Shown piece by piece: positions 2,827 through 19,970 of a stretch of 19,970 bases of DNA. The notes beneath the pieces were generated by a model. That model saw only the letters and a list, made by a program, of their open reading frames with translations, ran no database searches and was not told the DNA's origin. Position 1 is the first letter of the stretch, and every line of letters starts with the position of its first letter. The stretch comes from a bacterium (lineage in GTDB: Bacteria > JAMCPX01), in the NCBI GenBank assembly GCA_021789095.1, contig JAJYJX010000020.1:1-19970 (forward strand). Direction: 5' to 3'. The translations under genes and the position numbers were made by a program.

Positions 2827-3588
2827 TTACCTGTTCACTGCCGGCAAATAATCAAGCGGATTTTGGGGTATTGCACGCAGCCTGATCTCGAAATGCAGGT
2901 GCGGTGTTGTTGCATAGCCTGTTTGCCCTACCTTTCCAATAACCTGTCCCTGTCTGATGTCCTGTCCCTTCTTTACAAGGTTTATGCTGTTATGAGCATA
3001 CACTGTTACAAACCCGTCTCTGTGCTTTATTATAACCATGTTACCATAACCCCTTATGGTATCGTTGCTGTAGATCACGCTGCCTGACGCTGCAGCCTTA
3101 ACAGGCGTCCCCTCAGACGCCTTTATGTCTATACCATCATGCCTTGATCCGTTTGATGTACTGAACGTCTGCAAAAGCTTACCCTGTAACGGCCAGATAA
3201 ATGTCATAGCAGCAGTGTTGTGTGCAACAGAGCTGCCTGTTCTCTGTTTGGCAATATTACCGGCACTGCTTAACTGCTTATTGCCTGCTTTCTTGACTGC
3301 ATTTTGTCCGTGTTGTCCATGAGTTGTTTCAACAGTAGGCGGTACATATAAAACCTTTTCAGCGCCTGGAATAAAAATCTTTTGCCCGGGCTTTAATTCT
3401 GTTGTATCGGTTATGTTGTTCATCTTTTCAATATCCCCAATCTGCACATTGTAAATCCTTGCGATATTGTAAAGCGTCTGCCCTTTTTCAACCGTGTGAT
3501 ACACTCCGTAAGGCACACCGCATGAAACAACAACAACCAGTACCGCCGATATAAACAGTATATAATATTTTTTACTTTTTCCACCCAT
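2827..3588 (-). CDS. nlpD: LysM and M23 peptidase lipoprotein (NlpD-like)
   Basis: This is a predicted cell-envelope murein hydrolase or hydrolase activator. From the ATG at 3588 it has 253 residues. A short signal peptide ends in the lipobox VVSC (Cys 23). A LysM peptidoglycan-binding repeat follows (about residues 30-75, YHTVEKGQTLYNIARIYNV to LKPGQKIFIPG), then a low-complexity linker. The C-terminal LytM/M23 domain spans about 130-248. The zinc and catalytic residues of active M23 enzymes are present: H150 and D154 (HDGID), H199 (YAH), and H230 and H232 (HLH). E. coli NlpD has lost such residues and only activates amidases, so this one may cut peptidoglycan itself. A GTG at 3594 is an alternative start. 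The ATG is preferred because AGG lies 5 nt upstream. The start overlaps the end of pcm by 17 nt. Confidence 0.88.
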   Translation of the reverse strand: MGGKSKKYYILFISAVLVVVVSCGVPYGVYHTVEKGQTLYNIARIYNVQIGDIEKMNNITDTTELKPGQKIFIPGAEKVLYVPPTVETTHGQHGQNAVKKAGNKQLSSAGNIAKQRTGSSVAHNTAAMTFIWPLQGKLLQTFSTSNGSRHDGIDIKASEGTPVKAAASGSVIYSNDTIRGYGNMVIIKHRDGFVTVYAHNSINLVKKGQDIRQGQVIGKVGQTGYATTPHLHFEIRLRAIPQNPLDYLPAVNR

Positions 3589-4234
3589 ACTCACCTATTA
3601 ACTTCACAAACCTGCACCCTCCCAGTGACTCCTCTTTAAAACTCTTGCCCTGGTTTGTTACCTTCATAAGGGTCTGGACATACTCACTGCCTATGGGTAT
3701 GATAAGCCGTCCTCCGTCCTTTAACTGCTCTTTGAATGTATCAGGTATATAAGGAGCGGCAGCGGTAACAATAATGCCGTCGTAAGGTGCTTTCTCGGCA
3801 TAACCCTTGGTTCCGTCACCTACAACAATCATTACATTATGATAGCCCAGTGCATCAAGAAGTTTCCTTGCTTTTGATGCGATGGTACCAAGCCTCTCGA
3901 TGGAATAGACCTTTGAGCACAGCTCAGCGAGTATAGCAGTTTGATAGCCGGATCCGGTGCCTATCTCGAGTACGGTATCGTCCTGATGAACATCAAGATG
4001 CTGGGTCATAAGTGCAACAATATACGGCTGCGATATGGTCTGCCCTTCCGCTATTGGAAGCGGATAATCACTGTAAGCCTGGTATACAAGCCCATCTTCT
4101 ATAAAGAGATGCCTGGGTACTGTTCTGAATGCATCAAGGACCGCTGTTGATGTAATTCCCCTGCCAATCAGCTGCTCCTGAACCATCCTCTTCCTTTGCA
4201 GGGCTAAAGCATCAACGTCTTTTTTTTCTATCAA
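3572..4234 (-). CDS. pcm: protein-L-isoaspartate O-methyltransferase
   Basis: Pcm uses S-adenosylmethionine to methylate isoaspartyl residues formed by protein ageing, starting their repair. The 220-residue product has the family motif GQTISQPYIVA (about 64-74), the SAM-binding motif I VLEIGTGSGYQTA (88-100), SIER (111-114), and a late GGRLIIPIG (174-182). The start codon is TTG, placed directly after the TGA stop of surE with no gap. A GGAGG ribosome site inside the last surE codons lies 6 nt upstream and decides this start. The nearest in-frame ATG is 16 codons further in and would remove the conserved N-terminal helix. The arrangement predicts translational coupling to surE. Length matches the family. 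Confidence 0.95.
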   Translation of the reverse strand: MIEKKDVDALALQRKRMVQEQLIGRGITSTAVLDAFRTVPRHLFIEDGLVYQAYSDYPLPIAEGQTISQPYIVALMTQHLDVHQDDTVLEIGTGSGYQTAILAELCSKVYSIERLGTIASKARKLLDALGYHNVMIVVGDGTKGYAEKAPYDGIIVTAAAPYIPDTFKEQLKDGGRLIIPIGSEYVQTLMKVTNQGKSFKEESLGGCRFVKLIGEYGWKK

Positions 4235-4984
4235 TCACAGCCTCCAACCTGCTATTTCTTTCAGGAAAGCATACGCTGTAAAATCCAGTTGTATGGGTGT
4301 TATCGAGATATATCCGTCACGCACTGCCTGAATATCAGAGTTTTCTATAGGTTTATCCCCAAGTATATCGCCTCCTATCCAGTAATACTTCTCACCCCTG
4401 GGATCCACTTTCTCTATTATTAAATCACCGTACTGCCTCTTGCCCTGTCTTGTAAATTTGTAACCTTTAATATTTCCGCCAGGTATATTGGGGACATTTA
4501 CGTTCAAAAGTATATTTGGCGGCAGCGGGCGCCTGATGATCTGCTTTACAAGCTTTAAAGTAATGTCCCTTGCAGGTTTAAAATAAACCTTGTTTCTGCC
4601 TGCCACTGAAATGGCAATAGCAGGAACACTCTGCAGTGTCGCTTCTATAGCAGCTGCAACAGTACCTGAATATGTTATATCATCTGCAAGGTTTGGCCCC
4701 ATGTTTATGCCTGATACAACCAGCTGCGGCCGTACCCTGAGTAATCCGTTCAGCGCAAGATTTACACAATCCGTTGGCGTTCCGTTAACGGCATAGATCT
4801 GGTGTCTCCCCATCCTTTTTGCCCTTAAGGGCCTGTGAAGCGTCAAAGAATGGCTGGTTGCACTTTTCTCGCTGACAGGAGCCACAACATAAACATTGCC
4901 AATTCTGCCCATCTCGCTTGCAAGTGCTCTTAAGCCGTGGGAATATACACCATCATCATTTGTTACGAGGATATTAATTGCCAT
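4235..4984 (-). CDS. surE: 5'/3'-nucleotidase SurE (survival protein)
   Basis: SurE is a metal-dependent phosphatase acting on nucleoside monophosphates and other small phosphates, linked to stationary-phase survival. From the ATG at 4984 it has 249 residues, the usual length. The active-site residues are present: D10 and D11 in TNDDG, S41 in the loop before SLTL, and N94 in SGINMG. VNGTPTDCV (66-74) and YSGTVAAAIEA are further family motifs. The frame stays open upstream, but that part overlaps tRNA-Pro and is not family-like. Only a weak GGA lies before the ATG. It starts 14 nt after the tRNA and abuts pcm, reproducing the known surE-pcm-nlpD order. Confidence 0.96.
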   Translation of the reverse strand: MAINILVTNDDGVYSHGLRALASEMGRIGNVYVVAPVSEKSATSHSLTLHRPLRAKRMGRHQIYAVNGTPTDCVNLALNGLLRVRPQLVVSGINMGPNLADDITYSGTVAAAIEATLQSVPAIAISVAGRNKVYFKPARDITLKLVKQIIRRPLPPNILLNVNVPNIPGGNIKGYKFTRQGKRQYGDLIIEKVDPRGEKYYWIGGDILGDKPIENSDIQAVRDGYISITPIQLDFTAYAFLKEIAGWRL

Positions 4985-4998
4985 GAAAGAATCCAAAA

Positions 4999-5073
4999 TC
5001 GGGGCGACCCGATTCGAACGGGCGACCTCTCGCACCCCAAGCGAGTGCGCTAGCCAGACTGCGCCACGCCCCG
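4999..5073 (-). tRNA. tRNA-Pro (anticodon GGG)
   Basis: The minus strand folds into a 75-nt cloverleaf. The acceptor stem is CGGGGCG/CGCCCCG. The D arm is GCGC...GCGC. The anticodon stem CTCGC/GCGAG has the loop TTGGGGT, giving anticodon GGG for CCC/CCU codons. The T arm is GCCCG-TTCGAAT-CGGGT, with discriminator A. The first pair is C-G, typical of bacterial proline tRNAs. CCA is not encoded, since ATTTTGG follows, and must be added by nucleotidyltransferase. The tRNA lies 6 nt after the merR-like stop and 14 nt before surE, on the same strand. Confidence 0.97.
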
Positions 5074-5079
5074 ATGAAA

Positions 5080-5427
5080 TTAAGTTCCACTCAGCATCTT
5101 TCTGAGGTCTAACAACTGTTGTTTTAGCATATCAAAATTTTTTTTCAATCGTTTGCCGTCCTTATTATCTGTGTCCTGCGTCTTTTCCGACAATCTTCTT
5201 TTTGCGCCTGACAACGTCAGACCTTCTTCATATATAAGCTTCTTCAGGAGAATGATAATTTCGAGATCCTTCTTTTTGAACAATCTATAGCCGGTCGGTG
5301 TAATTATCGGCTTTAAAATCGGAAGTTCAGAAACCCAGTAGCGTATAATATATTCCTTAACGCCCGATATCCTGCTTACTTCACCAATCTTGAAGTAATC
5401 TTTGTTTTTGTAATCATGCTCCATCAT
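5080..5427 (-). CDS. MerR-family transcriptional regulator
   Basis: The 115-residue protein carries an N-terminal MerR winged helix-turn-helix (about residues 12-80: YFKIGEVSRISGVKEYIIRYW, then TGYRLFKKKDLEIIILLKKLIYEEGLTLSGAKRRL). A short lysine-rich coiled-coil tail follows (about 88-112) that could mediate dimerisation. It has no effector domain and no cysteine sensor pattern, so its signal is unknown. Two adjacent ATGs (5427 and 5424) are possible starts. Neither has a clear Shine-Dalgarno, and the start overlaps the end of ihfA by 14 nt, suggesting translational coupling. A small MerR-like gene between ihfA and surE is, to my knowledge, a recurrent arrangement in Deltaproteobacteria. Its target is not known to me. 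Confidence 0.9.
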   Translation of the reverse strand: MMEHDYKNKDYFKIGEVSRISGVKEYIIRYWVSELPILKPIITPTGYRLFKKKDLEIIILLKKLIYEEGLTLSGAKRRLSEKTQDTDNKDGKRLKKNFDMLKQQLLDLRKMLSGT

Positions 5428-5731
5428 CTTGGGATGATGCGATCTGTTTGTTTTCCTTCAGCAGTTTCTTAAGGGATGTTCCTGCTCTGTAAACGACAAC
5501 TTTTCTGGCAGAGATCATCATCGGTCTGTCGGTCTGGGGATTCCTGCCCAGCCTTTCTTTTTTTGATCTTGCATAAAAGGCACCTATACCTTTTATCTTC
5601 ACCTTTTCTCCCGCAATGATATCTGTCTTTATAAGATCAAAGAATGTATCAACAATCTCGGTTGCATCCTTCTTGGAGAATCCTATGTTTTTATATATAA
5701 GTTCTGCAAGTTCCGCCTTTGTTACCGACAT
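5414..5731 (-). CDS. ihfA: IHF/HU-family DNA-bending protein, IHF-alpha type
   Basis: The protein belongs to the HU/IHF family, which bends DNA and organises the nucleoid. It has 105 residues. The start MSVTKAELAELIYKNIGFSKKDATEIVDTFFDLI matches the helical dimerisation part of IHF-alpha. GEKVKIKGIGAF (41-52) is the beta-saddle start, with GIGAF where many family members have GFGNF. The DNA-binding arm includes GRNPQT (62-67), whose P65 is the residue that intercalates in DNA. A tail SARKVVVYRAGTSLKKLL follows. Position directly after pheT is the classic location of ihfA. An AGGAGG site lies 5-6 nt before the ATG, and the gap to pheT is 11 nt. Confidence 0.92.
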   Translation of the reverse strand: MSVTKAELAELIYKNIGFSKKDATEIVDTFFDLIKTDIIAGEKVKIKGIGAFYARSKKERLGRNPQTDRPMMISARKVVVYRAGTSLKKLLKENKQIASSQDDGA

Positions 5732-5742
5732 AAAAGCCTCCT

Positions 5743-8118
5743 TTATACTTTAAGTTTAACATTGTAATTGCCTGTTATGTATTCCATGACAGCCTTCATA
5801 AGGCGATCAACCTCTTCGTCCTTTAATGTCCTGTCTTCTGCCCTGAAAATAAACCTATACGTTATACTATGCTCTGATATATTCTTTTTGTCAACATACA
5901 GATCAAACGGGAATATTTCTGCGAGAAGAGGCATGCCGAGTGATCTTATACCGCTTATGATGTTCTGGGACGGAAGCGAAACCGGTTTTACAATCGTCAG
6001 GTCCCTTGCAATATGCGGATACCGTGGAACACCTGAATAGCTCGTGTAAGCAGATGCATCCGCCAGCAGTGGTTCAACTGCGACATCGAATACAAAAAGC
6101 TGCTGGGTTATGTCGTACTTTTTCAATACATGGCCAGCAACCTCTCCTGCAAAGCCTATATAATCGCCCTTATATTTAAATAACGCGGTATTATCCTGTG
6201 CAAGGAAATCAGGTGTCCCGGATTCAACTGTAAGACCGTTGCTTAATTTTAACAGATCGGCAATGCCTTCTACAATACCTATGGCATCAAAAAGATCCAC
6301 ATTCTCGTGCATGTATGCCCATTGAAACGGATAGCGCATGCCTGTTAAAAGCCCCGTAATGTGAAGCTGCTCCTCATATCTGTTGTCGGTTTTGAAATAG
6401 ACCTTGCCTGTTTCAAAAATCCGCTGGTTTTCAACCTGCCTGAAAATATTGAACTGCGCATTCTTTATAAGCTGCGGAACAAGGCTTGTGCGCATAAGCA
6501 TTGTCTGTTCATTGAGCGGGTTCGAAATACTGACAGCTTTATCTCCGACTACAGCATGATCGTTCTCACTGTAGAAGCTGTAATTAATAACTTCATCAAA
6601 GCCGTTTGACAGGAGATAATTCCTTATCAATCCCGTATACATATATTCAGACGGCATGTCTACATTGAATGTCTGTCTCAACGGGAGCAGAGACGGTATC
6701 TTATCATAGCCCGTGATTCTTGCTATCTCTTCGGCAAGGTCCGCGGTATGTACCAGATCCAGCCTGAACGAAGGCGGTTCCACCGATAGTGTTTTCGCGT
6801 GAACCCTTTTTACACTGCAGTATGTCGATTTCAGTATGGACTGAACTCTTTTCATATTCAGTGGAAACCCTATGATCGTTTGCAGTGTATCCATTGAAGC
6901 AATGATCTTTATCTTCTTACTTCTTGCTGCTCGGTTATCCACCAGTTTGTACACTTTTGCTCCCGTCATCTGCGAGATCAGGTATGACGCGTAACCAGAC
7001 GCGATCTTAGGAAGCCCTGGATCAATGCCTCTTTCAAATCTGTAGCCGGCCTCTGTCTGCATGCCAAGATTCCTCCCCGTCCTGCGGATAACCGGCGGAG
7101 CAAAGATTGCACTTTCGAGAAGTACATCCTTTGTTTGATCCGTTATGCCGCTGTACCGGCCTCCCATGAGGCCTGCAATGGCTACGGGTTTCTTTTCGTC
7201 TGCAATAACAAGAGTCTGGTTAGAAAGCATCCGCTCCTGATCGTCAAGGGTAATGAGCTTTTCGTTGTGCGCCCGCCTGACCATAATGGTACTTCCGTCT
7301 ACCGTATGCCTGTCAAAAGCATGCAATGGCTGTCCGATCCCGAACATTACATAGTTGGTTATATCAACTATGTTGTTCACGGGCTTTTGTTCTATCTTGC
7401 CGAGCAGTATTCTCAGCCATAATGGAGAGGCACTTATATGCACCCCCGATATAAGCCTGAGCGTGTATCTTGGGCAGTCATGCGGCGATTCTATTCTGAC
7501 CTTGACAGCTGCATTATGGTTATCATGTTTTTTATCATTCAATTCATAGGAAGGATATACAACTTTCAAACGGAACAGTGTTGCAATCTCCCTTGCAAGG
7601 CCGAGATGGCTCAGCACATCAGACCTGTTCGGTGTAACTGCAACATCGATAATCCAGTCGTCCAGCCCGAGTATCGATTTTACGTCTGTTCCCGGGACTG
7701 TTGACTGATCAAATGATATAACGCTGCGTTCGTATCCCGGTATGCCGAGTTCATCCTCTGAAACAATCATACCCGATGACCTCGCAGATTTTATATCTAT
7801 ATCCGCTATGGTCCTGTTATTTATTATACGTGCTCCGGATGGCGCATACGCCACAACCATACCCGCGGACAGTCCCTGTGCTCCGGTAATAGTTTCAAAT
7901 GTTTTGCTTCCGGTGAAAACTTCAGCAAGGTAAAGTTTATCAGAATTTGGATGGGGTTTTATGCCCTGAATTCTCGCTGTTACAATGCCGTCTATATCCG
8001 TATAGAGTTTCCTTGTATATTCAACCTCAAGTCCGGATAATGTAAGCTTGCGTGCAATATCATCCACGGGGGGTATCTTAGAAAGAAACTGCTGGAGCCA
8101 TTTGTATGAGTACAACAT
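5743..8118 (-). CDS. pheT: phenylalanine-tRNA ligase, beta subunit
   Basis: PheT pairs with PheS in the alpha2-beta2 enzyme that charges tRNA-Phe; the beta subunit binds tRNA and edits mischarged tyrosine. The 791 residues match the long bacterial form. An N-terminal EMAP-like tRNA-binding domain covers about 43-150 (GIVTARIQGIKPHPNSDKLYLAEV). The B3/B4 editing region is around 210-380, with VNNIVDITNYVMFGIGQPLHAFD. B5 is around 405-475. A catalytic-like core follows, and the C-terminal anticodon-binding ferredoxin-fold domain covers about 695-791 (YPHIARDLTIV to RLMKAVMEYI). The ATG is 1 nt after the pheS stop, with GAGG 8 nt upstream located in the end of pheS. Confidence 0.97.
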   Translation of the reverse strand: MLYSYKWLQQFLSKIPPVDDIARKLTLSGLEVEYTRKLYTDIDGIVTARIQGIKPHPNSDKLYLAEVFTGSKTFETITGAQGLSAGMVVAYAPSGARIINNRTIADIDIKSARSSGMIVSEDELGIPGYERSVISFDQSTVPGTDVKSILGLDDWIIDVAVTPNRSDVLSHLGLAREIATLFRLKVVYPSYELNDKKHDNHNAAVKVRIESPHDCPRYTLRLISGVHISASPLWLRILLGKIEQKPVNNIVDITNYVMFGIGQPLHAFDRHTVDGSTIMVRRAHNEKLITLDDQERMLSNQTLVIADEKKPVAIAGLMGGRYSGITDQTKDVLLESAIFAPPVIRRTGRNLGMQTEAGYRFERGIDPGLPKIASGYASYLISQMTGAKVYKLVDNRAARSKKIKIIASMDTLQTIIGFPLNMKRVQSILKSTYCSVKRVHAKTLSVEPPSFRLDLVHTADLAEEIARITGYDKIPSLLPLRQTFNVDMPSEYMYTGLIRNYLLSNGFDEVINYSFYSENDHAVVGDKAVSISNPLNEQTMLMRTSLVPQLIKNAQFNIFRQVENQRIFETGKVYFKTDNRYEEQLHITGLLTGMRYPFQWAYMHENVDLFDAIGIVEGIADLLKLSNGLTVESGTPDFLAQDNTALFKYKGDYIGFAGEVAGHVLKKYDITQQLFVFDVAVEPLLADASAYTSYSGVPRYPHIARDLTIVKPVSLPSQNIISGIRSLGMPLLAEIFPFDLYVDKKNISEHSITYRFIFRAEDRTLKDEEVDRLMKAVMEYITGNYNVKLKV

Positions 8119-8119
8119 G

Positions 8120-9151
8120 CTACTGCCTCAGAAATCTCAGGTCGTTCTCGAAAAACATCCTTAGATCGTTAATGTTGTATTTTAACATTGCAAGCCTCTC
8201 AGTCCCTATACCAAAGGCAAAGCCTGTGTAAACATCCGTATCATATTTTACTCTTTTAAAAACTTCGGGATGGACCATACCTGCCCCGAGTATTTCAAGC
8301 CAGCCTGCTGTCTTGCAAACCCTGCATCCTTTACCGTTGCAAAATATGCATCCAATATCAACTTCGGTGCTTGGTTCCGTGAACGGAAAATAACTCGGCC
8401 TGAATCTTATCTTCGTATCAACTCCGAAGAACGCTTTTAAAAAGGTTTCCAGTACACCCTTTAAATGCGTCATGCTTATGCCTTTATCAACAAGTAAACC
8501 CTCCACCTGATGAAACATGGGTGTATGTGTAAGATCCCAGTCTCTTCTGAAAACTCTGCCTGGAGCTATTATGCTTACCGGCGGCCTGCTCCTCTCCATG
8601 ATTCTTATCTGCACAGGAGAGGTTTGCGTCCTTAAAAGAAAACCACCGGAAAGATAGAACGTGTCCTGCATGTCCCTTGCAGGATGTTCCTCCGGCATGT
8701 TCAGAGCTTCAAAATTGTAATAGTCGCGCTCGATTTCCGGACCTTCCGCAATTGAAAAACCCATTGTTGTAAATATGGATACAACCTCTGTTAACGCTTT
8801 TGTAATAGGGTGCATGTGACCATAATTCACTTTTCTGCCAGGGAGTGTTATGTCTTTTAAGACAGCTTTGCCCTGCTTAGGAACCGCACCGTGTATAGCT
8901 TGATACTTTTCCTCAAACAGCTCCTGCAAACGCTGTTTAAACAGGTTAGCCGACTTTCCGAAAACGGGTTTGTCTTCCACAGATAAATCACTGAGTTGTT
9001 TGAACAGGTTCGTCAAGGCACCGGATGATCTTCCCATATATTTGATTCTGAATGACTCAAGATCTTCAGGCGTACCTGCATGCGACAGTTCTTCCTCTGC
9101 CTGCTGTCTTACAGAATCCAATCTTTCCAGTAGTTCATTGAGCGAGGGCAT
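8120..9151 (-). CDS. pheS: phenylalanine-tRNA ligase, alpha (catalytic) subunit
   Basis: PheS activates phenylalanine and transfers it to tRNA-Phe. Its 343 residues fit the family. An N-terminal coiled coil (about 1-90) is followed by a class II catalytic domain. Visible signatures are HPARDMQDTFY (156-166), RTQTSPVQIR (174-183), motif 2 GRVFRRDWDLTHTPMFHQVEG (198-218), and motif 3 FGIGTERLAM (313-322). A four-cysteine knuckle C268, C271, C276, C279 is of a type seen in many bacterial PheS. The ATG lies 3 nt past the rpoC stop. No good ribosome site is seen, so translation is probably coupled to rpoC. Being placed directly after rpoC is unusual; pheST normally follows infC-rpmI-rplT or stands alone. 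Confidence 0.97.
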   Translation of the reverse strand: MPSLNELLERLDSVRQQAEEELSHAGTPEDLESFRIKYMGRSSGALTNLFKQLSDLSVEDKPVFGKSANLFKQRLQELFEEKYQAIHGAVPKQGKAVLKDITLPGRKVNYGHMHPITKALTEVVSIFTTMGFSIAEGPEIERDYYNFEALNMPEEHPARDMQDTFYLSGGFLLRTQTSPVQIRIMERSRPPVSIIAPGRVFRRDWDLTHTPMFHQVEGLLVDKGISMTHLKGVLETFLKAFFGVDTKIRFRPSYFPFTEPSTEVDIGCIFCNGKGCRVCKTAGWLEILGAGMVHPEVFKRVKYDTDVYTGFAFGIGTERLAMLKYNINDLRMFFENDLRFLRQ

Positions 9152-9154
9152 AGT

Positions 9155-12100
9155 TCATACAGGGGTATTTTTGACCTCGGCTTTAGCTTCTTCATAGGAC
9201 GGCTCTATACCGAGTTTGACCTCGCTGTATTCCTCATGACCTGTACCGGCCGGGATCAGCCGTCCCATTATGATGTTTTCTTTTAATCCTCTGAGATAAT
9301 CAATCTTGCCCATGATCGAAGACTCTGTCAGTACCTTGGTTGTATCCTGGAACGATGCAGCGGAAACAAAACTGTCTGTGCTCAGTGATGCCTTTGTAAT
9401 ACCAATGAGCATTGGTTCCGCAACTGCAGGCTTTCCGCCTTTGTTGATCACCTTCTGATTAACATCTTCAAAATGATATTTCTCAACATGCTCTCCCGGA
9501 AGGAAATGGGTATCACCCGGCTCAAGTATTCTGATCCTTCTGACCATCTGCCTGACAATAACCTCTATGTGTTTGTCATTGATTTTGACACCCTGGTACC
9601 TGTAAACCTCCTGAATTTCATTAACAAGGAATTTGGCAAGTTCTTTAACACCAAGCACCCTCAGGATATCATGCGGATTTACCAGGCCGTCTGTAAGAGG
9701 CTCCCCTGCCTTCACATGATCCCCGTCCTGCACGCTTATATGCCTGCCCTTGCTTATATGGTATGTTTTTGATTCACCAATGGACGGCGCAACGATAACT
9801 GTTGTTTTCCCTTTTGCATCATCACTGAAGTGTACTGTACCGTCAATCTCGGATATAACTGCTGATTCCTTTGGCTTACGTGCTTCAAACAGATCAACCA
9901 CTCTTGGAAGACCGCCGGTGATATCTTTGGTCTTTGTTGTTTCACGCGGTATCTTTGCAAGCATATATCCCGCCTTAACCTTCTCTCCATCCTTTACCAC
10001 AAGTTCTGCTTTTATGGGCAATGATATGAACACGGGTGTGTTTGTACCCGGTATTTTAACTGTTACACCGCTCTCGTTCACTATTGATATATGCGGCCTT
10101 TTGTCCGGATCCTTTGATTCTATTATCATCTTTGTTGAACGGCCTGTTTGTTCGTTCCACGTTTCTTCTACAGTTACACCTTCTTCTATATCGCCGTATC
10201 TTACAATACCGCCCGCCTCCGTCAGTATAGGGCTGGCATAAGGGTCCCATGAGGCAAGGATATTCCCTGCCTTTACCTTTAAACCATCTTCTACATTCAG
10301 GTTGGCGCCGTAAACAATCTTATACCGCTCTTTTTCTCTTCCGCTCTCCTCGGCTATTATGACCTCTCCGTGCCTGTTCATGGCAATTATATTGCCGTCT
10401 TCCCTTTTGACAGTTTTCAATCCTATAAACTTAACGATACCGTCATATTTTGCTTCAAGAGAGTTTTGTTCAACCTTTCTGCTTGCAGTACCACCTACAT
10501 GGAATGTCCTCATCGTCAACTGGGTGCCGGGCTCCCCTATGGATTGGGCAGCTATAACTCCTATCGCCTCACCTATGTCAACAAGCTTGCCCCTGGCAAG
10601 ATCCTGGCCGTAACATTTTGCACAGACCCTGCCGCCCCTTGATCTGCATGTCAGCACCGACCGTATGACAACACTTTCCACGCCAGCATCCTCTATCTTT
10701 TTTACAAGTTCATCGGTGATAAGCTCATTTGCCTTTACAAGAATTTCACCTGAAAACGGGTCAACAACATCGGTAAGAACGACCCTTCCGATGATCCTTT
10801 CACCAAGTGTCTGGACAACCTCACCGTCAACGATAAGGGGCGTTATAACAATACCGTCAAGTGTGCCGCAGTCGATCTCCTCTATGATTGCGTCCTGCGC
10901 CACGTCTACCAGCCTTCTTGTCAGATAACCTGAATTTGATGTCTTCAATGCCGTATCAGCAAGACCTTTTCTTGCACCGTGAGTTGATATGAAATACTCA
11001 AGCACATTCAGGCCCTCCCTGAAGTTGGACAGTATGGGTGTTTCCATAATATCACCCGACGGCTTTGTCATGAGACCTCTCATACCCGCAAGCTGTTTTA
11101 TCTGCTCATCACTGCCCCTTGCTCCTGAATCAGCCATGATGTATATAGGGTTGAAGCTCGGCACCTTTCTGTTAACTCCGTCCCTGTTAACGATGATATC
11201 GCCTGCGATTTCTTTTTTCATTTCGATTGCTACGCTCTCGCTCGCCTTTGCCCAGATATCTATGATCTGATTGTGCTTTTCTCCGGAGGACAGGAGTCTT
11301 TCGTTTGCACGCTCTGTAACCTGTCTTACTTCTTCTATTGCTTTCTTGATGATCTCGGATTTCTTGGGCGGTATCTTCATATCGTTAATGGATATGGAAA
11401 TACCTGCCTCGGTAGCCATCCTGAACCCTATATCCTTTAACCTGTCTGCCAGGAGCACGGTTTCCTTTTCACCGGCAATTTTGTAGCAGAGTTCTATCAG
11501 GTTGGCGATCTCCTTCTTGCCCATCACCTTGTTTATGTAATCAAACGCGATCCCTGATGGAAGTACATCAATGAGCAGCGTACGGCCGACCGTTGTATCG
11601 TAAATCTTGCCGTTGAATCTCAATTTTATTTTTGCATGAAGATCCACGACCTTCAGTTCATAGGCTATCCTTACCTCTTCATGACTCGAAAAATATTTCC
11701 CCTCACCTTTCACATATGCACTTGGCTTTGTCATATAGTAAAGCCCCAGAACTATATCCTGAGTAGGGTTTATTATGGGCTTGCCGTTAGCAGGAGAGAG
11801 TATATTGTTTGTGGACATCATCAGTATCCTTGCCTCCGTCTGGGCTTCAATAGACAAGGGAACGTGCACAGCCATTTGGTCACCGTCGAAATCGGCATTG
11901 AACGCCGGGCATACAAGAGGATGCAGTTGTATTGCCTTGCCTTCGACAAGTATAGGTTCAAAGGCCTGTATGCCGAGCCTGTGGAGCGTTGGCGCCCTGT
12001 TAAGGAATACCGGATGCTCGGTTATTACCTCCTCCAGCACATCCCATACTTCTGGCTTTTCTTTCTCCACCATCTTCTTCGCCGTCTTTATTGTAGTGGC

Positions 12101-13273
12101 ATAGCTGTACTCCTCAAGCTTGTTATATACAAATGGCTTGAACAGCTCCAGTGCCATCTGCTTGGGTATGCCGCACTGGTGCAACTTGAGCTCCGGACCA
12201 ACCACGATAACCGACCTTGCGGAGTAATCAACCCTCTTGCCAAGCAGGTTCTGCCTGAACCTGCCGTGCTTGCCCCTTATCGTTTCACTGAGGGATTTCA
12301 ACTCCCTCCTGTTGGCAGCCGTTACTGTCTTGCCTCTCTTGCCGTTGTCGATAAGTGCGTCAACAGCCTCCTGAAGCATTCTCTTTTCGTTCCGGATTAT
12401 AATATCGGGTGCGTCTATCTCAAGAAGTTTTTTCAACCTGTTGTTCCGGTTAATGATCCTCCTGTACAGGTCATTGAGGTCCGCTGAAGCAAAGCGTCCG
12501 CCCTCAAGATGTACAAGAGGCCTTAATTCCGGCGGAAGAACCGGAAGAACTTCCATTATCATCCACTCCGGCTTGTTTCCCGACAACCTGAATCCCTCTA
12601 CGATCTTAAGCCTCTTTGCGAGCTTTTTTTTCTTTTGATCAGAATTTGTACTCTTTATATCCTTGCTGAGGTCCTTGGACAGCTTGTCCAGATTGATCCT
12701 CCCAAGGAGCTCCCTTATTGCCTCTGCTCCCATCTTTGCCGTAAACCCTGCAGGACCGTATTCCTTTATAAGTTCAAGATATCTTTCCTCTTTCAACAGT
12801 TCCTTTTCTTTCAAAGGCGTGTTTTTGGGGTCTATCACTATATACGACTCAAAGTACACAACCCTTTCAAGTTCCCTTGCTGTAAGATTAAGCAGATTGC
12901 CGATAGGGCTCGGTACGCTCTTGAGGAACCAGATATGCGCCACCGGTGAAACAAGCTCTATGTGTCCCATGCGCTCCCTTCTGACTTTTGACTGTATAAC
13001 CTCCACGCCGCATTTCTCACATACAACACCCCTGTGTTTCATACGCTTGTATTTTCCGCATAAGCATTCGTAATCCTTTATAGGTCCGAATATCTTGGCG
13101 CAGAACAAACCATCCCTCTCGGGTTTGAATGTCCTGTAATTGATCGTTTCAGGCTTCTTTACCTCCCCGTGGGACCAGCTGCGTATCTTCTCCGGGGATG
13201 CAATACCAATCCTCACAGCTGCTATTTCACTTGGATTTTTAGGCTTTTCATGCAGGAAAAAACCTTCTTCCAT
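9155..13273 (-). CDS. rpoC: DNA-directed RNA polymerase, beta' subunit
   Basis: RpoC forms the clamp and the catalytic centre of RNA polymerase. It has 1372 residues, against 1407 in E. coli. The N-terminal zinc ribbon uses C70, C72, C85 and C88. The magnesium-binding NADFDGDQM is at 459-467 (D461, D463, D465). Downstream lie the bridge helix and trigger-loop region ([44 protein letters not shown]). The second zinc site is CGTLDG plus [12 protein letters not shown] near residue 880-900. There seven rather than the usual six residues separate the second and third cysteines. C-terminal repeats around [26 protein letters not shown] are intact. A GAGGAGG site precedes the ATG, 15 nt after rpoB. 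No frameshift is seen. Confidence 0.99.
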
Positions 13274-13288
13274 TTTATCCTCCTCTGA

Positions 13289-16200
13289 TCATTCTAATTG
13301 GTCTTTTTCTATTAATTCCATATCCAGTGCCATACTCTTGAGTTCCCTTACTAGTACATTGAATGACTCGGGTATGCCCGGTTCAAAATTATGCTTGCCC
13401 TTTGTTATAGAGTCAAAGATCCTTGTTCTGCCTATTATATCATCTGATTTAACAGTCATCATTTCCTGCAGCGAGTACGCTGCACCGTAAGCTTCAAATG
13501 CCCACACCTCCATCTCTCCCAGCCTCTGGCCGCCGAACTGGGCCTTACCGCCAAGAGGCTGTTGTGTAACGAGAGAGTACGGACCAGTTGACCTTGCGTG
13601 GATCTTTTCTTCAACAAGGTGATGAAGCTTCAGCATGTACATAATGCCGATCGTGATCTTCGCCCTGAACGGCTCGCCTGTTTTTCCGTCATAGAGTGTG
13701 ATGCGGCCGTCTTCAGGCAGGTTTGCGAGTTTTAACAGATCCTTTATCTCCTTCTCGGTTGCGCCGTTGAAAACCTCTGTCGTTATTCTAACGCCGTCTG
13801 TAATCTTTTTTGCAAACTCCACAATTTCATCGTCATCAAGAGAATCTATATATTTCAGCACTCCGCTGTTCTTATAGATATCCATCAGGTAATCTTTCAA
13901 TTTATCAGGGCCGTAGTTTTCTTCAAGATATTCCTGTATCTGTTCCCCCAGTGCTTTTGCGGCCCAGCCAAGGTGCGTCTCGAGTATCTGTCCTACATTC
14001 AGCCTTGATGGCACACCAAGGGGATTCAATACTATGTCAACAGATCTTCCGTCAGGCAAAAACGGCATATCTTCCACTGGTACTATCTTGGAAACAACGC
14101 CTTTATTACCGTGCCTGCCTGCCATCTTGTCGCCTGCGTATAACTTTCTTTTTGTTGCAATAAAGATCTTCACAAGCTTGAACACTCCGACAGGAAGCTC
14201 ATCCCCTCTTTTTAGTCTGTTTACCTTCTGTTCGAATATGGATTTGATCATATCCTTCTGTTCTATGGTTGAGTCTATAATCTTCTTCACCTTCTCCTGC
14301 AGCTTGCTGCCTGCTGCAAAAGATGCCGATGCCCATTTCTCTATGGGTATCTTTTCGATGACCTCCTTTGTTATGACATCACCATGTTTCAGGTGGACCT
14401 TCCTACGTTCATCTGAGAATTTTTCTCCTATCTTCTCGCCCTCAAGAAGCTTGATAAGATGTTCCTTCATTGTATCTTCTATTATGCTTAATTCTTCTTC
14501 CTGATCTGTGTGCAGTTTCATGAGCTCATGATCCCTGGTCTTGTCCTTATCGGGTACGCTTTTTCTCGAGAATATTCTTACGTCAACAACTGTGCCGTGC
14601 ACACCCGGCTTCACCCTCAAGGATGTATCTTTGACATCTCCTGCCTTATCTCCGAAAATAGCCTTGAGCAGCCGCTCTTCAGGGGTTGGCTGGGATTCCC
14701 CTTTGGGCGTAACCTTCCCTACAAGGATATCACCGGGCTTAACTTCTGCGCCTATCCTGATAATACCGTTATCATCCAGATCCTTGAGGCTCTCTTCGCT
14801 TACATTCGGTATATCTCTTGTTATTTCTTCCCTGCCCACCTTCAACTCCCTTGCTGCGCACTCATACTCTTCAATATGAACAGAGGTGAAAATATCCTCT
14901 TTGTTTATTCTTTCGCTGACGAGTATGGAATCCTCATAGTTAAAGCCGTTCCACGGCATAAAAGCCACAAGTACATTTTTACCAAGTGCCAGTTCGCCCT
15001 TTGATACGGCAGCTCCATCAGCTATTATGTCACCCCTTTTAACACGCTGTCCTATCTTCACAACTGGTACCTGGTTCAAACAGGTGCCCTGGTTGGATTT
15101 CTGAAACTTATGAAGGTTGTATATTTTTACCGTTGGCCCCTTGGACCTGTTCATGTATTGAATGACGATCTTTCTTGCATCAACAGAGGTTACAACCCCG
15201 TCATCCTCTGCTGTAATGATAACACCGGAATTCCTTGCGATATAACTTTCTATACCGGTCGCAACAAGAGGGGCCTCGGTCTTTATGAGAGGAACAGCCT
15301 GCCTCTGCATGTTGGAACCCATCAGCGCCCTGTTTGCATCGTCATGTTCCAGAAACGGTATCAGTGCAGCCGCTGCTGAAACAAGCTGTGCAGGAGACAC
15401 GTCCATAAAATCAACCTCATCCTTGTGAACCATAAGGAATTCGCCGTTTCTCCTTGCTGCAACATACTCTTCAATAATCCTGTTCTTGCCATCGAGCACT
15501 GTATTAGCCTGCGCTATCGTTTTGTTCTCTTCGTCTATTGCAGATGTGTACATAAGTTCATCTGTTGCCACACCGTCCCTTATCACCCTGTATGGTGTTC
15601 TCAGGAATCCGAACTCATCCACCTTGGCATACGTGCTCATAGAAGCAATTAAACCGATATTAGGGCCTTCCGGTGTTTCAATCGGGCATATCCTTCCGTA
15701 GTGGGTTGTATGGACATCCCTTACCTCAAACCCTGCCCTCTCCCTTGTTAACCCTCCCGGCCCAAGTGCTGACAACCTTCTTTTATGCGTAATCTCTGCA
15801 AGAGGGTTGGTCTGATCCATAAACTGTGAAAGCTGGCTCCCGCCAAAGAATTCCTTTATTGCAGCGGTTACAGGTTTCGGATTGATCAGTTCGGAAGGCA
15901 TCAGTGTTTGAAGGTCATGTGTAAATTTCTCCTTAACGGTCTTTGCCATTCTTAAAAGTCCGAGCTTGAACTGGTTCTCCATAAGTTCGCCCACTGTCCT
16001 TACACGGCGGTTGCTGAGATGGTCTATATCATCAACTTCACCTTTGCCGTTTTTCAGATCAAAAAGATACTTTACCGTATCAATAATATCCTCTTTTGTA
16101 AGTGTCGTGACATCAAGCGGGATATTCTTGCCAAGACGGCTGTTGATCTTTAATCTGCCAACCCTTGTAAGGTTATACCTCGATTTTGAAAAGAACATCT

Positions 16201-17383
16201 CTTCAAAGAAAAATTGGGCTATTTCGGGTGTATAGGATTCGTTGGGTTTTAACTTGGCATAGAACTCCTCTATCGCTTCCTGCTTTGTGTTTATTTTATC
16301 AAGAAGCATGGTTTCTCTTATACTGCCGCTTATCGAGATATTATCATAATATATAAACTCGAGTTTTTCTATTTTACTGCTTACAATCTTCTCAAAAATA
16401 TCCCTTGTGATGCTCTCGTTGCATTTTAATATTATCTTGCCATCCTTATTCAGCACATCATGCACGGATATCCTTCCATCGATGTCTTCGTATTTTACCG
16501 GTACAGACTTAACTTTATGGGATATTATTCTCCGTGCAAGATTACGCGTGATCTTGGTTCCGGCCGGCACAACGACCTCCCCTGTTGCAGGATCCTGGAT
16601 GTCTACGCTGAACCTCCTGTTCAGCAACAAATCATAATCCAGCTCCATGCTTATACTGTTTTCCCTGATCTTTACAAATTCCGTCTTGTAAAATCTGCGC
16701 AGTATCTCTTCTTCGGTGTAACCCAGGGCCTTAAGAACTACCGTTGCATAGAATTTCTTCTTTTTATCAACTTTCACATACATTATATCCTTTTGATCAA
16801 ACTCAAAATCCAGCCAGGAGCCCTCATACGGGATTATGCGTGCCATATAAAAAGGCCTTCCCGTGCTCTGAATCTTAAGCTTGTCATATTCAAAAAATGC
16901 ACCGGGAGAACGGTGTAACTGGCTTACAATAACTCTCTCTATGCCATTTATTATAAATGTACCGTTTGACGTCATAACAGGGATTTCGCCGAAGAATACC
17001 TCCTGTTCTTTTATATCCCTGACCGTCTTGGTCTTTGTTTCGGGATCAACATCTTTCAGTATAAGTCTGACCATTATTTTCATCGGCATCGTGTACGTCA
17101 AACTCTTTTCCTTGCACTCGTCTACATCGTAAGCCGGCGGATCAAGTATATACCTTACAAACTCGAGGGAAGCGGTTTCATTGTAATCTTTTATAGGAAA
17201 AACAGCATTGAATGCTGCCTGTAATCCGGTGTTCCGGCGCTCTTCAGGCCTAACGTCCGCCTGCAGGAACTGACTGAAAGAATCCAATTGTACCTCGATG
17301 AGATCCGGTATATCCATCAAGGTATGGAATTTCCTGAAATCCTTTCTCGGCACAGAAAACTCATTTAAATCTTTGGCGCTCAT
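13289..17383 (-). CDS. rpoB: DNA-directed RNA polymerase, beta subunit
   Basis: RpoB is the second large RNA polymerase subunit. It has 1364 residues, slightly longer than the 1342 of E. coli. The fork and rifampicin region is clear at about 512-545 ([33 protein letters not shown]). The residues equivalent to E. coli Q513, D516, H526, R529, S531 and L533 are all wild type (here Q520, D523, H533, R536, S538, L540), so the enzyme should be rifampicin-sensitive. [17 protein letters not shown]-like NGFNYEDSI, and [18 protein letters not shown] are further universal motifs. The C-terminal clamp anchor is [46 protein letters not shown] site lies 9 nt before the ATG. It follows rplL after 134 nt containing a hairpin. 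Confidence 0.99.
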   Translation of the reverse strand: [1364 protein letters not shown]

Positions 17384-17517: not shown

Positions 17518-17943
17518 TTATTTAATCTCTACCTTTGCTCCGACAGCTTCAAGCTGCTGCTTGATCTTTGCCGCATCCTCCTTGGATATACCCTCTTTCA
17601 CAACCTTTGGAGCACCCTCAACAAGTTCCTTTGCTTCTTTCAAACCGAGACTGGTTATGGCTCTGATCTCTTTTATTACCTTAATCTTCTCAGCACCTGC
17701 TTCCGCAAGTGTTACTGTAAATTCGGTCTTCTCTTCTTCCGCCTGCTGAGGCTGTGCTGAAGCCTGGGCCGCAGAAACCGCTGCTCCCATAACAGGCATT
17801 GCTGATGCTTTTATGCCAAACTTATCTTCGAGTGCTTTTACCAGTTCTGCAAGTTCCATAACGTTCATCTTCGATATAGCGGCGAGAATATCGTCCTTGG
17901 TTATTGTTACATTCTTTTCTGCAAGACCTTCCTTTGTAGCCAT
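17518..17943 (-). CDS. rplL: 50S ribosomal protein bL12 (L7/L12)
   Basis: bL12 forms the mobile stalk that recruits translation GTPases, anchored through uL10. It has 141 residues, compared with about 121 in E. coli. The N-terminal dimerisation helices are [31 protein letters not shown] (about 14-44). An Ala/Gln-rich hinge covers about 45-70, and the C-terminal factor-binding domain about 71-141 ([43 protein letters not shown]). Some 11 extra residues ([11 protein letters not shown]) precede the part that aligns with E. coli. The start is supported by a strong AGGAGGT site, and no alternative internal start exists. It is 10 nt downstream of rplJ. Confidence 0.98.
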
Positions 17944-17953
17944 TATCTACCTC

Positions 17954-18478
17954 CTAATTTTTTGTTTGTTTATTTTGTTTTATTCCATTCAATACAGTTA
18001 TTAAGCCTGCTATGGGTGATGCAACAGCGTACACAAACCTTGATATCGGAGCACTTAAAGTATTAACGAGCATGCCTACCAGAGTCTCTCTGTCGGGTAA
18101 TGTTGCCAACAATAATACCCTGTCAGGAACAACAAAATTATTATCAAAAACACCACCCTTAATAACCATAAACGGATGGCTTTTTGAGAATCCGACTATT
18201 TGTTTGGCGACCGCAGCCGGGTCTCCGTAAGAGAACATAACAGCAGTGGAACCTGTAAGCACATTTTTCCCTATTTCAGGCAGTATCCCCTTCGCCGCTA
18301 ACTGAAAGAGCGTATTCTTGACAATCTTAAGATCTCCGTCCTTTGCTCTCAGCTCCCTTCTAAGGTTTGTAAGCTCACCGACTTTCAAACCTTTATATTC
18401 CGTCAGGAATATAGCCCTTGCTTTCATTATTCTTTCCCTTATATCAGAAACGACTTGACCCTTTGACTGTTTATTCAT
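17954..18478 (-). CDS. rplJ: 50S ribosomal protein uL10
   Basis: uL10 binds 23S rRNA and carries the bL12 dimers of the stalk. The 174-residue product has the N-terminal rRNA-binding part (ARAIFLTEYKGLKVGELTNLRRELRAKDGDLKIVKNTLFQLAAKG). Then come LTGSTAVMFSYGDPAAVAKQI and the C-terminal helix that holds bL12 (FVYAVASPIAGLITVLNGI). A GGAGG site lies 7 nt before the ATG. The gap to rplA is only 21 nt, so the long L10-binding leader known upstream of E. coli rplJ is absent here. If autoregulation exists it must act elsewhere. Confidence 0.97.
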   Translation of the reverse strand: MNKQSKGQVVSDIRERIMKARAIFLTEYKGLKVGELTNLRRELRAKDGDLKIVKNTLFQLAAKGILPEIGKNVLTGSTAVMFSYGDPAAVAKQIVGFSKSHPFMVIKGGVFDNNFVVPDRVLLLATLPDRETLVGMLVNTLSAPISRFVYAVASPIAGLITVLNGIKQNKQTKN

Positions 18479-18499
18479 ACCTAAACCTCCGTACGTTTA

Positions 18500-19186
18500 C
18501 TACCTGTACCTGGAAATCTCAACTTTTACACCGGGCCCCATTGTTGTTGATATATATGCATTCTTCAGGAACTGGCCCTTGCTGGTGGACGGTTTGATAG
18601 ATTTTAATTTCTCCATTATCGCGTTAAAATTCTCTGTCAATCTGTCCTCAGGAAATGACTTCTTCCCTATAGCAAGATGAACCACTCCGCCCTTATCATT
18701 TTTTATCTCTACCTTACCTGCCTTTGCCTCTTTCACCGCCCGTACCACATCAAATGTAACAGTGCCAAGTTTGGGGTTCGGCATAAGTTTCTTCGGGCCG
18801 AGTATTTTACCGAGCTTACTCACCATGCCCATCAAGTCGGGCGTTGCGATAACCGTATCAAAATCAATCCACCCGCCGAGAATCTTGTTCACAAGCTCTT
18901 CGGACCCTGCATAATCAGCGCCGACATCCAATGCTTCTTTTTCATTTTTCGTGAATACAAGAACCTTCACCTGCTTGCCCAGACCGTAGGGAAGAACAAC
19001 AGTAGCCCTTACATTCTGATCGGTCTGCTTTGTATCTACGCCAAGATTAACAGAGAGTTCAACTGTTTCATCAAACTTTGGGCCCTTGAGTTTCTTTATA
19101 AGTTCTATACCTTCCTTGAACTCATAGGCCTTGCCACGCTCTACCTGCTTACTTGCTTCATTAAATACTTTTCCGTGTTTTCTCAT
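18500..19186 (-). CDS. rplA: 50S ribosomal protein uL1
   Basis: uL1 forms the L1 stalk at the ribosomal E site and often represses its own operon by binding mRNA. From the ATG at 19186 it has 228 residues, the usual size. Signatures include KFDETVELSVNLGVDTKQTDQNVRATVVLPYGLGK, MGMVSKLGKILGPKKLMPNPKLGTVT, and GKVEIKNDKGGVVHLAIGKKSF. A TTG at 19201 in the same frame would add five residues, but GAGGTG lies 7 nt before the ATG and fixes the start. The gene begins 11 nt after the rplK stop. No L1-operator leader is visible inside the window, since rplK itself follows nusG by 12 nt. Confidence 0.98.
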   Translation of the reverse strand: MRKHGKVFNEASKQVERGKAYEFKEGIELIKKLKGPKFDETVELSVNLGVDTKQTDQNVRATVVLPYGLGKQVKVLVFTKNEKEALDVGADYAGSEELVNKILGGWIDFDTVIATPDLMGMVSKLGKILGPKKLMPNPKLGTVTFDVVRAVKEAKAGKVEIKNDKGGVVHLAIGKKSFPEDRLTENFNAIMEKLKSIKPSTSKGQFLKNAYISTTMGPGVKVEISRYR

Positions 19187-19197
19187 TATAGTACACC

Positions 19198-19623
19198 TCA
19201 AACAACTTCCACGCCCATACTTTTTGCCGTTCCTTCTATGATCTTTACAGCACTGTCTATATCGTACGCATTGAGATCCGCCATCTTTTGCTTTGCTATC
19301 TCAATGAGCTGATCCTTTGTAATCTTGCCGACTTTATTTTTTTTAGGATCGCCGGAACCTTTTTCAAGTTTTATTGCCATTTTTATTAAAACAGATGCAG
19401 GGGGAGATTTTGTAACAAAAGAAAAAGTTCTATCAGAATAGATAGTCACTAATGCCGGTATAATCAAGCCTTCCTGCATCTTCGCTGTCCTCGCATTGAA
19501 TGCCTTGCAGAATTCCATTATGTTAACGCCGTGCTGGCCCAGCGCAGGACCAACAGGCGGTGCCGGATTAGCCTTGCCAGCGGGTATCTGCAATTTTACT
19601 TTTGCAATCGCTGTTTTTGCCAT
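19198..19623 (-). CDS. rplK: 50S ribosomal protein uL11
   Basis: uL11 binds the GTPase-associated region of 23S rRNA and is needed for RelA-dependent stringent control. Its 141 residues match the standard length. The N-terminal domain has [36 protein letters not shown], with the proline-rich thiostrepton-region motif intact. The C-terminal RNA-binding domain includes [20 protein letters not shown] and ends in DAVK-like [19 protein letters not shown]. An AAGGAG site precedes the ATG. It is 12 nt after nusG. Confidence 0.98.
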
Positions 19624-19635
19624 TTTTCTTCTCCT

Positions 19636-19970
19636 TTAGTTCTTCTCAACCTGATTGAAGTTAACTTCTACAGGTGTCGACCTTCCGAAAATACTTACCA
19701 GTACCCTCAACCTTCCTTTATCTGCCTTGACTTCCTCTACGATGCCGTTAAAACTCGCAAAGGGACCTTCTATGACTCTTACACTCTCTCCGGTTTCGAA
19801 TGACAATTTCGGTTTTGGCTTTACCGTTCTCTCATGGATCTCGGCTATCAGTTTATTAACCTCTTCATCTGGCACCGAGGGTATTGATCGTATATCCTTG
19901 CCTCCGCCCACAAAACCGGTAACCATGGGTGTCGATTTTACGATATGAAATGCCTCTTCGGTCGGTTCAA
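19636..19970 (-). CDS. nusG: transcription termination/antitermination factor NusG, C-terminal part
   Basis: NusG binds RNA polymerase and links it to Rho or to the ribosome. Only about 111 C-terminal residues are in the window, and the 5' end is beyond the right edge. The visible frame runs [37 protein letters not shown], the end of the NGN domain. A short linker leads to the KOW domain ([50 protein letters not shown]), with the invariant glycine of the KOW motif present. An internal ATG at 19926 lies inside the conserved NGN domain and is not the start. nusG followed by rplK is the standard order. Confidence 0.97.

Follow-up and report, generated by a model that had tools for sequence, protein, structure and literature searches.

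The window, a stretch of 19,970 nucleotides of a draft bacterial genome (G000), carries pheS directly behind rpoC. This adjacency is very probably one product of a single reciprocal rearrangement in which two near-universal operons traded their tails, in an ancestor shared by genera g1 and g2 of one family. Few gene neighborhoods of bacteria are as conserved as these two, the rpoBC-str and infC-pheST operons. The two new junctions, rpoC-pheS and rplT-rpsL, coexist in four genomes (G000, G001, G006, and G008), both old junctions are found in the close relative G002, and the old rplT-pheS junction is also present in G003. Before the exchange, one operon would have run nusG-rplKAJL-rpoBC and on into rpsL-rpsG-fusA-tuf-S10, and the other tRNAVal-tRNAVal-thrS-infC-rpmI-rplT and on into pheST-ihfA-merR-tRNAPro-surE-pcm-nlpD; afterwards, rpoBC would lead into pheST and the genes behind it, and rplT into rpsL-rpsG-fusA-tuf and onward. 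The earlier note on this DNA had described a fusion of the rpoBC and pheST-ihfA blocks. The adjacency that it described is real but is only half of the event: the same lineage also shows the reciprocal half, in which rpsL-rpsG-fusA follows rplT, and it is this second junction that marks rpoC-pheS as half of an exchange. Two core operons simply traded tails in this one lineage, and the reported fusion shows one side of that trade.

The window operon lies on the minus strand in the order nusG (cut)-rplK-rplA-rplJ-rplL-rpoB-rpoC-pheS-pheT-ihfA-merR-tRNA-Pro(ggg)-surE-pcm-LysM/M23 (nlpD-like), with rpsT nearby. The retained head, whose gene order is identical in G001 and G002, comprises the 3' part of nusG with rplK, rplA, rplJ, and rplL (17518..19968; Pfam), rpoB (13289..17383; 1364 aa, Pfam Rpb2 domains), and rpoC (9155..13273; 1372 aa, all five Pfam Rpb1 domains, 1-5), which closes the head operon nusG-rplKAJL-rpoBC. 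The exchanged tail opens with pheS (8120..9151; 343 aa, Pfam tRNA-synt_2d). The genes previously proposed to follow it agree with their Pfam assignments: pheT (5743..8118; 791 aa, B3_4, tRNA_synthFbeta, and FDX-ACB), ihfA, encoding an IHF/HU-type nucleoid protein (5414..5731; Bac_DNA_binding), the MerR-family regulator gene (5080..5427; MerR_1), surE (4235..4990; SurE), and pcm (3572..4234; PCMT). Additionally, ARAGORN places tRNA-Pro(ggg) between merR and surE (4998..5074), as is also the case in G002 and G003, and the last conserved gene of the tail is the LysM/M23 (nlpD-like) gene (2827..3594), which occupies the same position in those two genomes. The longest surE open reading frame (4235-5035) overlaps the tRNA-Pro gene, and taking its first start would lead to misannotation; the true start is probably near 4990. 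A lysine-rich open reading frame of 162 aa on the plus strand (484-972) has no Pfam match. An Rfam scan of the window and six loci returned tRNAs only, with no L20 or L10 leader at the gathering score.

The distance of 3 nt reported between the rpoC stop and the pheS start is exact, the junction (9149..9160, minus strand) reading ...CCT GTA TGA ACT ATG CCC. A search for kin in the family gave nine genomes in four genera (g1 to g4), and a search at phylum level returned the same nine; placement in the Desulfobacterota, as the earlier note had assumed, is unsupported, with kin dropping from the same family directly to the same domain. Five of these genomes have rpoC directly upstream of pheS, namely that of the window (g1) and G001, G004, G006, and G008 (g2), and the sequence of G007 (g2) is incomplete in this region. 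The g2 spacer between the two genes is about 100 nt (~107 nt). Each genome has one rpoC, one pheS, and one rplT place, except G005 with pheS pieces on two contigs. The same adjacency in four more family genomes makes it neither chance nor the product of a chimeric contig. An assembly or binning artefact, with the window contig C129 fusing two unrelated fragments at the rpoC stop, would fit a window that makes up an entire contig in a draft assembly of 203 contigs, another of which, C128, ends in adapter sequence. Such an artefact is nevertheless refuted by the replicated junctions, since the four other genomes were independently assembled and share 75-80% PheS identity with the window, and a matching reciprocal junction exists in the same lineage; its probability is negligible.

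The arrangement is rare as well as real. Among the 104 genomes of a domain-wide sample that were listed with both a PheS and an RpoC place, the two lie within 5 kb of each other only in G000 and G001, and with the three family members removed, the adjacency occurs in 0/101 of the genomes listed with both PheS and RpoC. In the GTDB r220 collection, where the best PheS match is 59% and no near relative appears, rplT lies upstream of pheS in 76 of 80 named loci, and the remaining 4/80 have none of the reference genes there. The usual neighbors that had been named, rpoC-rpsL and rplT-pheS, are accordingly well founded, with rplT-pheS in 76/76 informative named loci and both junctions in G002. A literature search found neither rpoC-pheS nor rplT-rpsL adjacency named. 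The tie of pheT to ihfA and merR is nothing new, as pheT-ihfA-merR is an ordinary operon tail in many bacteria. Gene identity and order match the canonical thrS-infC-rpmI-rplT-pheST-ihfA(-merR) operon on each side of the breakpoint, but in g1 and g2 that operon is cut after rplT, its head leading to rpsL and its tail standing behind rpoC. Likewise, the head and tail genes of the canonical rplKAJL-rpoBC and str (rpsL-rpsG-fusA-tuf) array are intact and in order, and G002 keeps the standard junction, whereas in g1 and g2 pheS comes after rpoC and the str block stands behind rplT with a promoter-like box. G011, an unrelated genome of another lineage, has both operons on a single strand with about 15 kb between them: on contig C13 (L153, 1915-19865), rpoC-rpsL and thrS-infC-rpmI-rplT-pheS share a strand and fit within about 18 kb, and no fusA or rpsG was found after rpsL on that contig.

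The reciprocal junction was sought through rplT, located in eight family genomes, and rpsL, located in seven. In the derived lineage, thrS-infC-rpmI-rplT leads into rpsL-rpsG-fusA: rplT is followed by rpsL-rpsG in G001, G006, G007, and G008 (all g2), with fusA next where the contig extends (G001, G006, and G008). The rplT-rpsL spacers vary from 79 to 261 nt. The earlier note had called for locating infC-rplT and rpsL-fusA in the genome of the window, and they lie on contigs C128 and C184, respectively. On C128, tRNAVal-tRNAVal-thrS-infC-rpmI-rplT is followed by the opening 37 codons of rpsL, after which the contig ends in AGATCGGAA, while C184 starts inside rpsL and continues through rpsG-fusA-tuf-rpsJ and onward through the S10 and spc genes. 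The two contig ends overlap by 25 nt with one mismatch, and therefore both new junctions, rpoC-pheS and rplT-rpsL, occur in the genome of the window. The terminal AGATCGGAA matches the start of the Illumina adapter and occupies positions 4067-4077 of C128 (L063), directly behind the rpsL fragment; the break between C128 and C184 is probably due to adapter that had not been trimmed. In each of the four genera, thrS is headed by a tRNA-Val pair (cac, gac), before and after the exchange alike (L063, 404-630; L145, 6753-6973; L059, 13304-13494; L060, 6818-7114).

The ancestral state is preserved in the sister genera. G002 (g3) is canonical at both places, with rpoC followed by rpsL-rpsG-fusA-tuf-S10 and with tRNAVal-tRNAVal-thrS-infC-rpmI-rplT followed after 3 nt by pheS-pheT-ihfA-merR-tRNAPro-surE-pcm-nlpD. 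G003 (g4) has the same rplT-pheS junction, also of 3 nt. The ancestral rpoC-rpsL junction is seen in one family member, G002, rpoC of G003 and G005 being cut by a contig end. In a tree of PheS and PheT with ten outgroup loci, g1 and g2 are split from g3, g4, and the outgroups with a bootstrap value of 94. The tree and the canonical order in the sister genera indicate that the derived order arose once, within the family, from the order usual in bacteria. G005 was excluded: PheS on its contig C69 (rplT-pheS) is just 56% identical to that of the window, and a second fragment, 84% identical, lies on C132 (L061 and L062). The two pheS pieces may represent contamination in a draft genome.

The simplest route to these junctions would be one inversion between oppositely oriented operons with breakpoints at rpoC/rpsL and rplT/pheS, for example one symmetric between replichores. 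When two breaks are rejoined crosswise, both new junctions arise at once. An inversion would work if the operons faced opposite ways, as would leading-strand operons on opposite replichores; for operons of like orientation, excision of the intervening segment and its reinsertion would give the same two junctions. One symmetric inter-replichore inversion of the kind described in PMC5850607 and PMC9584773, with breaks inside two leading-strand operons, would produce exactly these junctions, but here the orientation and distance of the operons are not readable from draft contigs. The family genomes are all drafts with the two operons on different contigs, and inversion, translocation, and excision-reinsertion look alike in them. 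Flanks beyond nlpD already differ among G002, G003, and g1/g2 and therefore do not discriminate inversion from the other routes.

Rearrangements can also arise by duplication and differential loss, as argued in PMC7055797 (the SNAP hypothesis), and duplication of one or both regions with differential gene loss could stand in place of a two-break exchange. The g2 rpoC-pheS spacer of ~107 nt and the rplT-rpsL spacers of 79-261 nt leave room for deletion debris. However, both complementary junctions are present, no leftover gene copies were found even though copies could be expected, and the g2 rpoC-pheS spacers, compared with the rplT 3' end in search of a fossil, showed no more resemblance than chance allows (best p about 0.05 over 24 comparisons). 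This route also takes more steps than a two-break exchange and is improbable. Less probable still are two separate moves, of pheST-ihfA-merR-surE-pcm alone to a place behind rpoC, by transposition or horizontal transfer, and of the str block to one behind rplT. Beyond nlpD, gene order does differ among genomes, but separate moves require two independent insertions, each at the breakpoint that the other vacated, and in the tree PheS and PheT fall with those of the family, giving no sign of foreign origin.

The reciprocal exchange may have been tolerated for several reasons. Both breakpoints appear to be intergenic, the str operon appears to have had a promoter of its own immediately before rpsL, and pheST would already have been a promoterless downstream part, readable from the rpoBC transcript instead of that of infC. 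By consensus matching, the rpsL leaders contain TTGACA with a -10-like hexamer 16-18 nt later in G002 (before the exchange) and in G000, G001, G006, G007, and G008 (after it), the -10-like hexamer ending 25-27 nt upstream of the rpsL start codon. Since the box is present before and after the exchange, the str operon carried this promoter-like element along. In G002 the TTGACA box lies only about 11 nt beyond the rpoC stop codon, and so the break was confined to a very short interval adjoining rpoC. A consensus scan found no such box in the g2 rpoC-pheS spacers or in the last 300 nt of the rpoC gene of the window, and therefore the simplest view is that pheST now shares the rpoBC transcript, as it once shared that of infC. 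This reading of pheST from rpoBC is itself a prediction from sequence. Neither promoter nor terminator was seen by consensus at the rpoC-pheS junction, but counts from promoter and terminator scans across the window equal the shuffled expectation. That RNA polymerase expression now governs tRNA-Phe charging and a nucleoid protein is a hypothesis.

The start of pheS in the window differs from those of its neighbors. A ribosome site had been reported as lacking there, and the 19 nt upstream of pheS are predicted to pair with the anti-Shine-Dalgarno sequence at +0.9 kcal/mol, the weakest value among the window genes tested, against -8.7 to -12.0 kcal/mol for rplK, rplJ, rplL, rpoB, rpoC, and ihfA. 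The median at 500 random positions is -2.8 kcal/mol, and pheS of six relatives pairs at -4.1 to -7.6 kcal/mol. A wrong start call is unlikely because family homologues begin at the same methionine. It is in g1, where pheS lies closest to rpoC, that the pheS Shine-Dalgarno sequence has been lost. The missing Shine-Dalgarno sequence and the gap of 3 nt suggest termination-reinitiation, and the window pheS most likely relies for its translation on ribosomes that reinitiate after completing rpoC. Termination-reinitiation needs very short gaps according to PMC6728339 and PMC10666635. The window pheS resembles the coupling described there in its very short gap and missing Shine-Dalgarno sequence, but here the partners are functionally unrelated and rplT has been replaced as the upstream partner by rpoC or a mini-ORF. 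Readthrough of the rpoC TGA, which is in frame with pheS, would yield a fusion protein, as holds for any gap of 3 nt (also rplT-pheS in G002).

A stop codon lies exactly 3 nt before the pheS ATG in 7/7 genomes read. It belongs to rplT in G002 and G003, to rpoC in G000, and to a mini-ORF of 24 codons in G001, G004, G006, and G008. This mini-ORF, with a single in-frame ATG, lies between rpoC and pheS in all four g2 genomes read (L056, L057, L058, and L040). Its peptides differ freely among species (MYSALNEAFGEREISDVYRCSEVA, MYLELNATFGVQERREELQCSEVA, and MHGAFDAVCGLPATRSPQVCQGTA), and its length and stop position are constant, even where TGA is replaced by TAA. The fixed length and stop would fit termination-reinitiation, which is suggestive only, as the four genomes include two that are nearly identical here. 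It is conceivable, though rather doubtful, that pheS, having lost rplT, was re-coupled to a new upstream frame, rpoC in g1 and, in g2, a 24-codon mini-cistron that arose anew, with its length and stop position fixed and its sequence free. If so, synthesis of PheST would depend on the completion of upstream translation and would represent a natural swap of coupling partner.

The rpoC-pheS adjacency is real and rare, and mechanistically it is an ordinary chromosome rearrangement. The tail swap is a rare-event marker uniting g1 and g2. It also profiles a tolerated break, with breakpoints between genes, a putative str promoter that travels with its operon, and a preserved stop-start junction at pheS. 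The states before and after the exchange, found within one family, provide a natural test of how far gene order matters for coordinating the supply of ribosomes, RNA polymerase, and synthetase.
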